A stretch of 64,000 bases of DNA, from positions 1 to 64,000 of the forward strand of contig NZ_KB906692.1 in NCBI RefSeq assembly GCF_000381545.1, in the 5' to 3' direction. The stretch is from Rhodonellum psychrophilum GCM71 = DSM 17998 (GTDB lineage Bacteria; Bacteroidota; Bacteroidia; Cytophagales; Cyclobacteriaceae). The notes under the pieces were generated by a model. It was not told the origin of the DNA and ran no database searches. It worked only from the letters and a program-made list of their open reading frames with translations. The translations under genes and the position numbers were made by a program. Below, piece after piece: positions 1,593 to 25,061 of the stretch (positions are counted from its first letter, which is position 1; each line of letters starts with the position of its first letter).

Positions 1593-1754
1593 AAGAAAAG
1601 GAAGAATTGACCAACACCTTATAATAAAAAAAGAGAAAATAAACCTTAAAAATCACTAAATGCGCACTAGGAGTTCATTTGAAAATTAAATCCATTTTAT
1701 TGTATCCTTCACACCATTTGTAAGTCTCCATATTGAATTAAAACTTATTTTGAT

Positions 1755-1868
1755 ATGGAAAAATGTATCTGCACAAACTGCGAATGCCAGCAATGCGAAT
1801 GTAAAAATTGCAAAGAAAATGACTGCCCTTGTGAAAAATGTACGTGTACGAAATGTGAGTGTTGTTAA
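1755..1868 (+). CDS. Metallothionein-like cysteine-rich miniprotein, 37 aa
   Basis: A 37-codon ORF with 14 cysteines (residues 4, 6, 9, 11, 14, 16, 19, 24, 26, 29, 31, 34, 36, 37). Cysteines form repeated CxC-xx-CxC units (CICTNCEC, CECKNC, CPCEKCTC, CKCECC-like end) separated by Glu, Lys, Asn and Thr, with no hydrophobic core and no aromatic residues. This is the composition of a metal-thiolate cluster protein. Read from sequence: the ORF and the Cys pattern. Inferred: binding of Zn, Cu, Cd or arsenite in the cytoplasm. It is not clearly one of the named bacterial families (SmtA/BmtA are larger and contain His). The TAA stop lies inside the end of the adjacent mobile-element-like repeat (from 1865), so the original C-terminus may have been longer. 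Confidence 0.72.
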   Translation: MEKCICTNCECQQCECKNCKENDCPCEKCTCTKCECC

Positions 1869-2040: not shown

Positions 2041-2070
2041 ACGCGGGTTGGCAACAATGCCAACCCGCGT
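2041..2070. other. Perfect 13-bp-stem hairpin just upstream of sigZ
   Basis: ACGCGGGTTGGCA, loop ACAA, TGCCAACCCGCGT: a perfect GC-rich stem directly after the MITE-like copy A and ending 15 bp before the sigZ ATG at 2086. There is no run of T after it (ATTTTC), so it is a weak candidate for an intrinsic terminator. In the 5' leader of sigZ it could limit translation. It differs sharply in composition from the AT-rich surroundings. Confidence 0.6.
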
Positions 2071-2085
2071 ATTTTCTGAAGAATT

Positions 2086-2615
2086 ATGAAAACTGAGAGA
2101 TTTTGGAAGGAATACCATCAATCCTTGTATTTTTTGGCCTGAAACGTGTTGGGGATTTAGAGGCCACAAGTGATATACTTCAAAATTCATTTCTCAAAGT
2201 GCACCTGCATCGCCATTCCCTCAAAAATACAAAACATGCTAAAGCTTGGGTTTATCAAATCGTGAGAAATGAAATTTCCGATTATTACAATAATATACAA
2301 CAACAAAAACAAATTTCCGGATTGGAATTTCATCCAGCCAACCAAAACCTATTTCAGGACTATTGCTGTTTCGATAGATTTATGAATGATCTTCCTTTAA
2401 TTTACAAAAGTCCAATCGAGATTGTCTATTTAATAGGTAAAAAGAAAAAAGAGGCCGCAGATATTTTGGGTATAGGTCTGTCAAATTTGAAAGCCAGAAT
2501 AAGAAGAGGTAAAGCTCTTCTAAAAATGAATTTTTTAAATTGTTGTAAGTTTAAAATAGATAAGAATGGATATCTGACCGGCGAAGCAAATTGCGGTGTC
2601 TGTGGAAAATTATAA
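2086..2615 (+). CDS. sigZ: SigZ-type ECF RNA polymerase sigma factor, frameshifted near the N-terminus
   Basis: Two frames join into one SigZ-like protein. From the ATG at 2086 one frame reads MKTERFWKEYHQSLYF and then hits TGA; the next frame continues FFGLKRVGDLEATSDILQNS to the stop at 2615. The switch is a -1 step at a run of six T (2130-2135) that reads T TTT TTG in the first frame, a heptamer of the slippery type. The region-2 block (DILQNSFLKVHLHRH, AWVYQIVRNEISDYY) and the sigma-4 helix-turn-helix (KKEAADILGIGLSNLKARIRRGKALL) are intact, as is a Cys-containing tail typical of SigZ. It may be programmed frameshifting, transcriptional slippage, a real inactivating mutation or a sequencing error. 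A Crp/Fnr regulator follows 32 bp later. Confidence 0.8.
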
Positions 2616-21069: not shown

Positions 21070-21762
21070 TTATCTATAATCCAACATTCTCTGATAGGTC
21101 GATTTTATCTTTTGCGGATGGATTTTAAGAAAAAACATGAGAAAAGCCACCAAATTTGCCCACTGAACCCGAAGCCAGGAATTGGTTTCGTACTTGCGCG
21201 CGGAAACCAGGATGCTCTTGGGAAGCAACCGGAACGGATATTTTCTTTTTATTTTCCGTACCAGATCAAAATCCTCCATGATGGTATAATATTCATCAAA
21301 ACCTTCAAGAGCATTGAAAGTTGATTTCCCGATAAAAAGTGTCTGATCACCACCACCCACCAAAAGTCCATTGAACCTCGTAAACCATGAATTGATACGC
21401 AACATCAGTTTGGGTGAATCAAATCGGTACCGAAAGCAACCTGCGGCATACCCATCCGAAATGGCATTCTGGATCTCTTTTACAAAACCCGGAACGAGCC
21501 TAACATCTGCATGGACGAAATAAAGGATTTCGCCTTGGGCATATTTTGCTCCAAGATTCATCTGCGCCGCCCTGCTCCTTACTTCGGAGTTGAGCACTTT
21601 GGCTCCGAGTGTGCGGGCAATTTCTTTGCTTTCGTCCCTACTACCGCCATCCACCACGATGATTTCGAGTAGATCCGATCCTCCAATTTTAAAAAGCGTC
21701 GGAATCGTGCTCTTCAGGTTTTCCGATTCATCCAATACGGGAATGATGATACTAAGCCGCAT
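21070..21762 (-). CDS. Arsenosugar-type glycosyltransferase (TIGR04283 family)
   Basis: 230 residues, GT-A family 2 transferase: SIIIPVLDESENLKSTIPTL, IIVVDGGSRDESKEIARTLG, YFVHADVRLVPGFVKEI (DXD-like HAD) and GCFRYRFDSPKLMLRINSWF, GGGDQTLFIGKSTF. The block VLNSEVRSRAAQMNLGAKYA is characteristic of the TIGR04283 family that accompanies ArsM/ArsS in arsenosugar loci. It is the most distal gene of the minus-strand arsenosugar operon, separated from ArsM by the interrupted gene at 21774-22367. The role, sugar addition to the dimethylarsinoyl product, is inferred from genome context and family name. Confidence 0.88.
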   Translation of the reverse strand: MRLSIIIPVLDESENLKSTIPTLFKIGGSDLLEIIVVDGGSRDESKEIARTLGAKVLNSEVRSRAAQMNLGAKYAQGEILYFVHADVRLVPGFVKEIQNAISDGYAAGCFRYRFDSPKLMLRINSWFTRFNGLLVGGGDQTLFIGKSTFNALEGFDEYYTIMEDFDLVRKIKRKYPFRLLPKSILVSARKYETNSWLRVQWANLVAFLMFFLKIHPQKIKSTYQRMLDYR

Positions 21763-21773
21763 GTTTAAAAAAA

Positions 21774-22367
21774 TCAGTTGCTTTTCCTTTTGATGACATA
21801 GTTTTTGATGGGGCTTTGCATGATTGCCTTTTCCAATTTGCCATTGAGATAGTAGAATTTGTTTTTGTTGCCGTTGACATCTACTTCATAGTAATCTCCT
21901 TTTTTCTTGATAGGGGAAGAAAGCCCATAGTTTTCGGCCATGAATACGGCATGCAGGATGGGTTCTTCAAAATACAGTTTGGAAGAACTGAAATAAAATG
22001 GGTTGGCCAGTGCGGTGTCCAATTCATACTTGTAGCTGGTCGCGGAGATTTCATACTGCTCATTGATCCAATCAATTTTGGAAAAAAAGTCTCCCCTGTT
22101 GGATTTTGTTGTTGTTCTCGACTTCACCAAGAGATTGTCTTTATAATGGCTGATAATTTCAAAATTGACGGATATATTTCCAAAAAACCAAAAGCTCACC
22201 AAACTGGTGAGCTCATAGACTGTATTTTTATCTTTTGTGTTTTTCTTGGCATTCAATTCTCCAATGGAAATTCCAGCCACGGAAATATCATATTTGATAT
22301 TTTCTTGACCATAGGTCTTGTTTGATCACAGAAAAGTCAAAAGAGAAAGGAAAAGCAATTTTTTCAT
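21774..22367 (-). CDS. DUF6134-like exported protein with an in-frame TGA in the signal peptide
   Basis: From the ATG at 22367 the frame reads MKKLLFLSLLTFL, then TGA at 22328-22326, then SNKTYGQENIKYDISVAGIS and continues without a stop to 21774. The interrupted part is plainly a signal peptide ending in a TYGQ cleavage site, so the TGA (codon 14) is the only lesion in a gene of about 197 codons. The mature domain resembles DUF6134 proteins of Bacteroidota (FEIISHYKDNLLVKSRTTT, YYLNGKLEKAIMQSPIKNYV). Downstream initiation at a GTG (22280) would give a product without export signal. It may be a recent nonsense mutation or an assembly error. Function unknown; it lies between two arsenosugar genes. 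Confidence 0.75.
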
Positions 22368-22421
22368 GTTTCGACACCCTTCGGTTTCTTTAAGGGTTTT
22401 CTAAGATGGGAAAAATTTACC

Positions 22422-23393
22422 TTAACAGCAACCCCCTCCATCATAGAAGAAGGTAGCCGGTGAAATATGAATATCCTGCCTGCCTAAATCCATGAGTGCA
22501 TTGGCAGTTTTGTCACAGATGGACAAGGGCTGGTTTTGCAGCAGGACATGTCCTTTATCGTCATCAAAATATTCGGCAGTTCCATAATAGATCGCGGATT
22601 TTCCGGTGAAGATACAAGGCCCATCGGATGGCATTGGGTCTTTGATGGCACAAACTTCCACACTGTCCAAAAAGATCATTTCTTTGGTGTCATATTGTCC
22701 TGGCGCAAGGATGCGGTAAGGCCTCTTTGCGCGAACTTCCACCGTTCCGAATCCGGCATCGGTGATCATTTTGAGGTATTCCTCAAGGGAAAGTGAACCG
22801 CTTAGGCAAAGCGCCCTCAGGCGATCATCATTTCTTAGCGTCTCAGGCATTTCCTGGTCTGTAACTGGGTCACTCAAAACCAGTCTTCCATAGGGTTTCA
22901 AAACCCTGTACATTTCCTTCAATGCTTTTTGAAGATCCTGCTTGGTGAAGATATTGAACAAACAGTTTTGGGCTGCCACATCGATGGAATTGTCTTCAAT
23001 TGGGAGTGCAAGTGCGGATCCTTTTCTCAGGGAGACAAAATCCCGCTTGAACCAATCGTTCTCCGATTCAGACTCGATAAGGTTTACATCACAGGCCGTC
23101 AGCATTTCATCCACAATATCGACCCCAATCACGCCATTTGTTTTCCGGGAAAAATAAGCAAATTGGAGGACTTCCATTCCTCCTCCGACACCGACATACA
23201 GGATATTGGGATCGTTGACAAGATCTCGCGGATGTACGGTGCTTCCACAACCATAATTCATCTCCTGCATTATTTTGGGTATGGTCAATCCCGGTAGTTG
23301 CCATACCGGTGTGGTGGTACAACAAAGACCTACATTTGGTTTTAATGCGGCATCTCTGTACACATTGATGGTCTCATCTAAATAATCACTCAT
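22422..23393 (-). CDS. arsM: Arsenosugar-type arsenite S-adenosylmethionine methyltransferase
   Basis: 323 residues from the preferred start at 23393 (MSDYLDETINVYRDAALKPN); the frame is open 12 codons further. It is a class I SAM methyltransferase (VGVGGGMEVLQFAYFSRKTN as SAM loop, IEDNSIDVAAQNCLFNIF) with the arsenic-binding cysteines expected of ArsM: GLCCTTTPVW, NYGCGSTVHP, and a C-terminal GGGCC. The extra C-terminal domain and the CC-end are typical of the arsenosugar-associated ArsM subgroup. It converts arsenite to methylated species that feed radical-SAM ArsS. The start overlaps the end of the TIGR04282 gene by 4 bp. Confidence 0.92.
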   Translation of the reverse strand: MSDYLDETINVYRDAALKPNVGLCCTTTPVWQLPGLTIPKIMQEMNYGCGSTVHPRDLVNDPNILYVGVGGGMEVLQFAYFSRKTNGVIGVDIVDEMLTACDVNLIESESENDWFKRDFVSLRKGSALALPIEDNSIDVAAQNCLFNIFTKQDLQKALKEMYRVLKPYGRLVLSDPVTDQEMPETLRNDDRLRALCLSGSLSLEEYLKMITDAGFGTVEVRAKRPYRILAPGQYDTKEMIFLDSVEVCAIKDPMPSDGPCIFTGKSAIYYGTAEYFDDDKGHVLLQNQPLSICDKTANALMDLGRQDIHISPATFFYDGGGCC

Positions 23394-24013
23394 TTTGTCT
23401 CTAGGGTTAAGCGAATGTAAGCATTCCAATCTTTCTCATTGTCGATGTCCGACAACATGGGAAGCAATTGGAATGGAATGTTTTTATCTTTTAATCTTGC
23501 TGCTGAAATTTTCAAAACCTCGGAAGTACTCCAAGGAATTTCCTCAAACAAGCTGTTCTCAAGCCGATTCATACCCAATAAATAATACCCTCCGTCTTTT
23601 GCGGGTCCAAATACTACCGGAAAAGAGGCCAGGTTGAGGAATGCATCCCGTATGATTTCAGCACTTATCTCAGGACAATCCGTACCGATGATGGCGATGT
23701 TTTCGAATCCGGCCTCAGACACTTCCCAAAAGGCATTTCTCATCCTATCGCCCAAATCCGATCCCTGTTGGACCCTGTGGTGGTTGCTATCCAAAGAAAC
23801 CCTTGCCGGTGGTTCCTCCAAATAATCGGAATAATAAATGAAGACTGCGATTTCCTGGATTTGGGTGATTTGGGAATAGGTCAGTTTCAGCAGATGGTGA
23901 TATATTTCCAAGGCTTTTTCATTTCCAACTGTGGCCGCCAGTCTGGTTTTGACTTTTCCCAAAACCGGATTTTTCTGGAAAACGATCAGCGCTTGTCCAT
24001 TTGTTTTTTTCAT
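23390..24013 (-). CDS. Arsenosugar-type glycosyltransferase (TIGR04282 family)
   Basis: 207 residues from the ATG at 24013. The protein has the signature of the TIGR04282/DUF2064 family: ALIVFQKNPVLGKVKTRLAA near the N-terminus (the nucleotide-binding loop), QGSDLGDRMRNAF, IIGTDCPEISAEII and FGPAKDGGYYLLGM. DUF2064 proteins are GT-A-like. The start lies 4 bp after the ArsS stop and the end overlaps ArsM, so translation is coupled along the operon. A longer frame (to 24067) is possible but overlaps ArsS further. Thought to act in arsenosugar assembly, by context. Confidence 0.9.
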   Translation of the reverse strand: MKKTNGQALIVFQKNPVLGKVKTRLAATVGNEKALEIYHHLLKLTYSQITQIQEIAVFIYYSDYLEEPPARVSLDSNHHRVQQGSDLGDRMRNAFWEVSEAGFENIAIIGTDCPEISAEIIRDAFLNLASFPVVFGPAKDGGYYLLGMNRLENSLFEEIPWSTSEVLKISAARLKDKNIPFQLLPMLSDIDNEKDWNAYIRLTLETK

Positions 24014-24017
24014 GGCA

Positions 24018-25061
24018 TTAAGACGTTGTGCCGCCACAGCTGGATCCTGCGCCAGCCGTACAGCCAAAACAATGTTGGTTTACGACAATGTTTCGGTTCA
24101 ACAATTGGATTTGGTTCCATTCGGAAATGTGCTGACTTCCCGTGGTTTCCACTTTGAGTTCCAGCATCTGATTGAAATCACAATCATACAAAAACCCATC
24201 CCAGCCAACCGAAATGGTATTTCTACACATCACATTGGCCGCCGCGACGGGATTGTAGGCATCCAGCAATTTTTCCATGTAGGACTCATAGTTTTCGGAA
24301 CGGATCAAATATTCCAAAAATCTACTGATCGGCAGATTGGTAATGGTGAATAGAGAATTGAACTCAATTCCGTATTGGCTGCTGAGTTTTTTCTTAAACT
24401 CCAATTCCAAGTCGCTTTGCGAAGCGGGAAGAAAAGCTCCCGAAGGGTTGTAGACCAAGTCCAAAACCAATCCGGATCCCGCGATTCCATACCCTACAGC
24501 ATTCAACATGTTCAGCGCTTTGATCGATTTTTCGAAAACACCCTCTCCTCTCTGGGAATCCGTTTTGACGGCAGTAAAATAAGGCAAAGAGGATGCGATG
24601 TCAATTCGATTCGTCTTGAAAAATTCCGGAAGGTCATTGTATTTTGGATTCGCCACAATGATGGTCAGATTGCACCTGACGATGATGTTGATCTTGTCAC
24701 TGATTTTCCTGATTTCTTCCACAAACCATCTGAAATCAGGATTCATCTCGGGTGCACCTCCTGTCAAATCCACATTTTTGATGTTTTCATTCCTGATGAC
24801 ATCCAGACAAAACCCCATTGTATCCCTGGTCATAATTTCCTTTCTGTCTGGACCTGCATCCACATGGCAATGTTTGCAAACTTGGTTGCACATTTTGCCC
24901 ATGTTGATTTGGAGGACTTCGATCTGGGTAGGTTTCAGCGGAAACAATCCGGATTCCTTCAGTTTTTTGTAAAATGGAGTGATTTCCGATTGGGCTTCCA
25001 ACACCTCCAATTCATGGGTGCTGCTGGATAAAGGATGGTTTTGTGCTTTGAGTGACTTCAT
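24018..25061 (-). CDS. arsS: Arsenosugar biosynthesis radical SAM protein ArsS
   Basis: 347 residues. The radical SAM cluster motif CxxxCxxC is at C58, C62, C65 (CNQVCKHCHVDAG). The DUF3641-type C-terminal domain is present with its conserved tail CFGCTAGAGSSCGGTTS, probably binding a second site. LTGGAPEMNPDFRWFV is the typical GGE-like SAM contact. ArsS joins a 5'-deoxyadenosyl group to dimethylarsinous acid, giving the deoxyadenosyl precursor of arsenosugars (known for cyanobacterial ArsS). The start shares its first base with the stop of the AhpD-like gene (TAATG). The gene is the diagnostic member of the operon. Confidence 0.95.
   Translation of the reverse strand: MKSLKAQNHPLSSSTHELEVLEAQSEITPFYKKLKESGLFPLKPTQIEVLQINMGKMCNQVCKHCHVDAGPDRKEIMTRDTMGFCLDVIRNENIKNVDLTGGAPEMNPDFRWFVEEIRKISDKINIIVRCNLTIIVANPKYNDLPEFFKTNRIDIASSLPYFTAVKTDSQRGEGVFEKSIKALNMLNAVGYGIAGSGLVLDLVYNPSGAFLPASQSDLELEFKKKLSSQYGIEFNSLFTITNLPISRFLEYLIRSENYESYMEKLLDAYNPVAAANVMCRNTISVGWDGFLYDCDFNQMLELKVETTGSQHISEWNQIQLLNRNIVVNQHCFGCTAGAGSSCGGTTS

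Follow-up and report, generated by a model that had tools for sequence, protein, structure and literature searches.

The window, by which we mean the entire 64,000-nucleotide stretch of Rhodonellum psychrophilum DNA that was analyzed, carries a metallothionein-like gene (mt) on the forward strand at 1755-1868, whose translation is MEKCICTNCECQQCECKNCKENDCPCEKCTCTKCECC. Fourteen of the 37 residues are Cys (38%) and His, Phe, Trp and Tyr are absent; translation thus confirmed the intact 14-Cys open reading frame (ORF) without aromatic or His residues described in the original prediction. Small size combined with a very high Cys content in CxC and CC motifs is one criterion for the metallothionein class, and the peptide meets it; metal binding in thiolate clusters, the functional criterion, is presumed. 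A search of the 64 kb for its nine-Cys spacing pattern gave this single site, whereas 100 dinucleotide shuffles gave none, and the gene is single-copy in its own genome (the sole other match has E = 2.9).

The main finding is what accompanies this gene, namely a sigma factor and a promoter, both absent from the original prediction. A predicted promoter reading TGTATCCTT-N14-GTCTCC (1701-1729, forward strand) lies 54 nt before the ATG and is the putative target of a SigZ-like extracytoplasmic function (ECF) sigma factor encoded downstream; between the two genes is a hairpin of 13 perfect pairs with a 4-nt loop (2041-2070, forward strand; −26 kcal/mol, z −6.5). The sigma gene of the window (2086-2615) lies in two frames, with the break close to a T-run. 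Its 5′ fragment (2086-2142, forward strand) reads MKTERFWKEYHQSLYFLA, then stops, and resembles the N-termini of relatives, and the remainder follows in another frame (2103-2615, forward strand) with the linker CC and the C-terminal CC...CxxC present. Relatives carry intact copies (Arenibacter certesii and Aequorivita lipolytica are examples of carriers with an intact pair), and the window's own genome yielded no further copy at E ≤ 1e-30 among the 8 of 38 candidates scored. The break may be an error in the sequence or may mean that the gene was recently lost; in the latter case, the local circuit may be dead.

Homologues of the peptide and selection on its gene

A search matched 14 of 98 genomes at E ≤ 1, five of which (the window's own and four others) were accepted as real; weak matches (E 0.03 to 0.6) were left out. 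Profile matches were found in 13 of 295 genomes of the family and 8 of 395 genomes of the phylum, the own genome counted in both cases, and a pattern scan of named genomes added at least 19 further members, whose genera and families we take to be all Bacteroidota (several placements were confirmed in the sigma factor tree described below). The distribution of the peptide is real but patchy. The scan of genome contigs for nine Cys returned at least 116 stretches, mostly low-complexity repeats, and 19 were retained under a rule allowing no Cys inside the four-residue linker, followed by inspection by eye; L137, L141, L200, L233, L238, L240, L241, and L245 were discarded at that stage as repeats or for lack of a start near the first Cys. 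The analyzed sample comprised 40 loci, i.e., the window, 20 others and the 19 pattern-scan loci (among the matches listed), encoding 39 distinct proteins with the window's included. Relatedness among the loci is not taken into account in these counts.

The matches listed for a seven-Cys pattern in viral contigs were mostly low-complexity repeats, and viral sequences were excluded from the sample. Separately, a 20-residue, nine-Cys peptide, MNCNCK(T/N)CNCDPCDCSC(S/T)CC, was seen in eight IMG/VR contigs (L253-L260) with very similar upstream sequence, and other Cys-rich ORFs occur in viral contigs L023, L094, L123, and L312 (among the matches listed).

The usual Cys layout of the peptide is CxCxxCxCxxCxCxxC, four residues, then CxCxxCxCxxCxCC. 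Both TGT and TGC are used at each of 12 Cys columns across the 39 distinct proteins, and the non-Cys cells in these columns come from one protein with a linker shorter by one residue and one that ends early. The original prediction had stated that the ORF would count as a chance one if no relative had a homologue with conserved Cys spacing; because the homologues keep this spacing, with TGT and TGC alternating, that refutation did not materialize. It had also proposed to look for low dN/dS in relatives; pN/pS for the peptide gene is 0.07, from 14 close pairs that are not independent. A very short ORF of repetitive composition might still be a chance reading frame, or an RNA element mistaken for coding sequence; set against the pN/pS value, the Cys columns maintained with alternating codons and a promoter at a fixed distance (see below), this explanation is hardly tenable. 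On the sequence evidence, we consider it confirmed that the ORF is a genuine, conserved protein-coding gene under selection.

The adjoining sigma factor and its putative promoter

Clustering of neighboring proteins yielded one cluster common to 36 of the 40 loci, located just downstream on the same strand: the SigZ-like ECF sigma factor, counted here with the window's frame-broken copy. A 37th locus (L365) carries it in broken frames, so that the sigma gene is the next gene in 37 of 40; the next largest neighbor clusters comprise five loci each. The promoter TGTATCYTTTT-N12-GTCTAC, or a near variant of it, lies at −45 to −69 from the ATG, mostly at −53 to −59, and was found at 36 loci by degenerate pattern and at one more (L366, with TGCGTC) by eye, likewise giving 37 of 40. 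At the same three loci (L363, L372, and L388) the peptide is kept and both sigma and promoter are absent. That the sigma factor reads this promoter is inferred, because the two are present and lost together.

In a tree of 98 sigma factors, the 36 metallothionein (MT)-linked sigmas form one clade (99/90). Alignment of 19 sigmas (16 from beside a window-type peptide, three from beside another Cys peptide) showed invariant C94 in the linker, C152 and C153 (the CC after sigma4), and C169 and C172 (the terminal CxxC). The predicted structure of the sigma factor had a mean pLDDT of 76 and a pTM of 0.41 and was weak at the C-terminus; Foldseek matched the model to ECF sigma factors, and the structure thus does not demonstrate a metal site.

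Within the window, the pattern TGTATCYTTN14GTCTMC (≤2 mismatches), written after the window copy had been seen, has one match (1701-1729), compared to a mean of 0.27 in shuffles. Across 34 carrier genomes, TGTATCYTTTT-N12-GTCTAC with ≤1 mismatch matched 37 times. Of these sites, 26 belong to the MT gene, each in a different genome, and 11 lie elsewhere; a reversed-pattern control gave 10 in the same genomes. Eight of the 34 had no match, including the window's own genome, where the promoter departs from this pattern at two places. Among exact matches, 17 of 18 are at the MT locus. Given that off-locus copies are no commoner than the reversed control, the two genes seem to make up a closed, self-activating circuit, with a regulon that appears confined to the mt-sigma operon. 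The single exact off-locus promoter, at about 1501-1529 of L495 (Mesonia), is followed on its strand by a lipoprotein-like ORF of 195 aa.

Hairpins with stems of at least 8 bp are present in 25 of 36 mt-sigma spacers, compared to 162 of 1600 pieces drawn at random from these loci. We infer that the hairpin is probably a leaky terminator, which would allow more peptide than sigma factor to be made.

The wider SigZ-like family and an inferred arsenic link

A TIGR02959 search (395 phylum genomes) and a sigma-alignment search (395 class genomes) together supplied 70 non-redundant sigma loci. This set is not a census: it consists of 30 loci and 20 stretches among the TIGR02959 matches listed, plus the sigma-alignment loci. 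Window-type carriers G235, G284, G291, and G327 were excluded as already among the 40, and a few bottom-ranked members (e.g., L441, L443, L445) are doubtful as SigZ relatives. A small Cys-rich ORF is located near the sigma gene (≤500 nt upstream or ≤300 nt downstream) at 22 of these loci, three of them with the window type, four with one other type and 15 with further kinds; applied to 800,000 strand-bases of matched DNA, this detector gave no such ORF. A related promoter, TGYRTCNTT...GTCW, occurs upstream at 24 of the 70 (rate in shuffled upstream sequences, 0.0009), together with a Cys peptide at 19 loci and without one at five, with three loci having the peptide only and 43 neither by the patterns used (Fisher 7.6e-10, not corrected for ancestry). 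Of 52 genomes with a sigma gene, 10 contain the exact TGCGTC promoter, at 12 sites that are never more than about 1 kb away from that gene, and the other 42 lack it; the reversed control gave none. SigZ-type promoters were also seen before a MATE transporter, a phosphatase-like protein and a PhzF-family protein (L454/L400, L463/L464, L427), which are possible further targets.

The related promoter directly precedes an arsenite methyltransferase gene (arsM) at L397, L398, and L475 and an ArsI/CadI gene (arsI) at L408. Using phmmer (E < 1e-12), we found arsenic-related genes near 23 of the 70 sigma loci, all within roughly 1.5 kb. No such gene turned up in 120 matched stretches of 3.2 kb taken from 20 of these genomes; this background replaced an earlier one of 97 unmatched loci, which also contained no arsenic match. 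The queries were picked once genes of this kind had already been noticed next to the promoter, so the test is post hoc. ArsM, ArsI or ACR3 is found at 22 of the 23 loci, and the last (L406) has only an ArsR-type match. Eight of nine ArsI/CadI proteins and all five ArsM proteins tested exceeded NCBIfam cut-offs; the remaining matches rest on phmmer only. In the tree of 98, sigmas linked to ArsI and to ArsM share a group (87/90) with the window-type clade.

Cys peptides and arsenic genes coincide at only two sigma loci (L447 and L471), as if filling the same slot. A different role for the peptide would be that of mainly a regulator (a soluble anti-sigma or a metal-relay partner binding the sigma factor) and not of a bulk sink. 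Peptide and sigma are indeed nearly inseparable (37 of 40), with no other neighbor gene shared in those loci. However, in relatives the same position is taken by peptides of unrelated spacing or by ArsM or ArsI enzymes, which would be odd for a specific protein contact, and three loci retain the peptide without the sigma. We regard a mainly regulatory peptide as improbable and favor a metal(loid) sink.

The original prediction had speculated about an arsenic tie to an arsenosugar operon in the same window. This operon is real (21070-25061; ArsS, ArsM and two glycosyltransferases, all of which pass their NCBIfam cut-offs) but lies about 19 kb away, and it was rejected as a cause and not used as evidence; the arsenic idea instead receives separate support from relatives of the accompanying sigma. 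By that route, and not by direct proof, arsenic is inferred to be the best-supported inducer. The link is thinner for the window type itself, since an ACR3 and/or ArsC-like cluster is found within 7 kb of only four of the 40 loci, two of them from one genus. In these two, which come from two species, the mt-sigma pair directly follows an operon with genes for ArsR-cluster, DUF6428-like and ArsC-like proteins that ends in ACR3; NCBIfam named ACR3 and, in a cluster representative, ArsR, and the other two are what we take to be DUF6428-like and ArsC-like proteins.

The same operon logic could instead serve Cu(I), Zn or Cd, as an ordinary metallothionein under a CorE-like sigma. CxC-rich thioneins and the sigma factors CorE and CorE2 respond to Cu, Cd or Zn (PMC3107203, PMC8999054, in the portions available), the ArsI/CadI family spans cadmium too, and the scarcity of arsenic clusters around window-type loci is in line with such a metal. 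Against it, ArsM, ArsI and ACR3 are found beside 22 of the 70 wider SigZ-like genes, and the P-type ATPase motif DKTGT is absent within 7 kb of the 40 window-type loci, around which the motif screen returned one HMA-type motif. A Cu, Zn or Cd circuit is thus unlikely, though it keeps appreciable weight.

We consider it probable, with real room for doubt, that mt and the SigZ-like sigma form a two-gene, self-activating operon that senses a metal(loid), with As(III) or methylarsenite as the leading candidate; this grading covers the operon reading as a whole, including the ORF product as a metallothionein-like thiol sink, whose metal binding is itself inferred. In such an operon, mt would be the first gene and the sigma factor, carrying its own Cys sensor (the sigma2-sigma4 linker Cys plus the CC...CxxC after sigma4), the second. 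A thiophilic metal(loid) is inferred to bind the sigma cysteines, As(III) or methylarsenite being the likeliest candidates. The loaded sigma factor would then read the TGTATCYTTTT-N12-GTCTAC promoter, and this putative induction would drive mt and, past the leaky hairpin, the sigma's own gene. The inferred feedback would follow once abundant peptide takes up the metalloid and the sensor is switched off.

A broader proposition, for which we see roughly even chances, is that Bacteroidota possess a class of arsenic-sensing ECF sigmas with an on-board thiol sensor, running self-activating circuits of nearly one target each. The target slot would be interchangeable among arsM, arsI and unrelated metallothionein-like micropeptides, and the window gene would be a dedicated arsenic thionein. 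The analysis suggests what SigZ-like sigma factors may do, in a form open to testing. Should the arsenic step hold, this would be an arsenic sensor of a kind not found in the open-access literature searched, and two genes plus one promoter would constitute a compact arsenic biosensor.

Relation to known metallothioneins and metal-sensing sigma factors

Described bacterial metallothioneins are of few sequence types, and SmtA and BmtA have His ligands and a zinc-finger-like fold. Like these, the window peptide is small, Cys-rich and a presumed metal sink; unlike them, it has no His, and thus does not meet the His-ligand criterion, and it consists of two seven-Cys blocks of CxC repeats. No Pfam model passed its cut-off with any of the 24 members searched, the one match (PF12749, Metallothio_Euk, one member, E = 0.2) falling below it, and no NCBIfam model matched the five members searched; HMMER filters can, in both cases, lose weak matches of biased composition. 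The peptide resembles eukaryotic metallothioneins of PF12749 in being CxC-rich, but the similarity is not significant. Three observations support the original view of a metallothionein-like protein that is not of the SmtA/BmtA type: the composition of the peptide, its conservation, and the absence of any Pfam or NCBIfam match above cut-off. Gene callers easily skip short Cys-rich ORFs of this sort, and such peptides can be found from context (promoter, sigma factor and tiny Cys-rich ORF).

The best curated match of the sigma factor is SigZ (TIGR02959, NF007215), although three of the four sigmas tested score below both SigZ cut-offs. The window sigma reached 111.5 bits with TIGR02959 (cut-off 168.65) and 112 with NF007215 (cut-off 212); two relatives' sigmas also fell below both, and that of Pontibacter passed TIGR02959 (170.8) and failed NF007215. 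As in the MT-linked sigmas, a C-terminal CC...CxxC is present in a Vibrio plasmid SigZ. A plasmid search gave nine sigma matches, all <60% identity, and of three plasmid loci examined only that of Hymenobacter fits the plan; no peptide with ≥6 Cys and 20% Cys was found at the Vibrio and Priestia plasmid SigZ loci examined. The Hymenobacter plasmid (L506, NZ_CP110138.1) has a SigZ-type promoter before the sigma gene and another before a 22-aa, 6-Cys peptide, which is near arsC and an ACR3 gene.

Among the open-access papers listed, we found no description of SigZ or another ECF sigma linked to a metallothionein operon or to arsenic, and the available portions of PMC3107203, PMC8999054, and PMC10141476 do not describe the mt-sigma pairing. 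A close parallel is with CorE and CorE2, ECF sigmas of Myxococcus xanthus with Cys motifs in the linker and the C-terminus (PMC3107203, PMC8999054). According to the accessible parts of those papers, CorE has a CXC in the linker and a C-terminal Cys-rich domain (CRD) with four invariant Cys, and drives cuoB and copB. The SigZ-like sigma shares the placement of its Cys motifs with both and, like CorE as it appears there, has no linked anti-sigma among its shared neighbors at the 40 loci. Unlike them, it has a linker CC in place of the CXC and a terminal CC...CxxC in place of the CRD, and so does not meet the CorE-like criterion as far as these sources define it. The system lacks the motifs that define CorE as well as those that define SmtA, and its sigma is mostly below the SigZ cut-offs; by analogy, peptide and sigma would on this reading nevertheless correspond in function to a metallothionein controlled by a CorE-like sigma that senses metal, with direct activation by metal being inferred.
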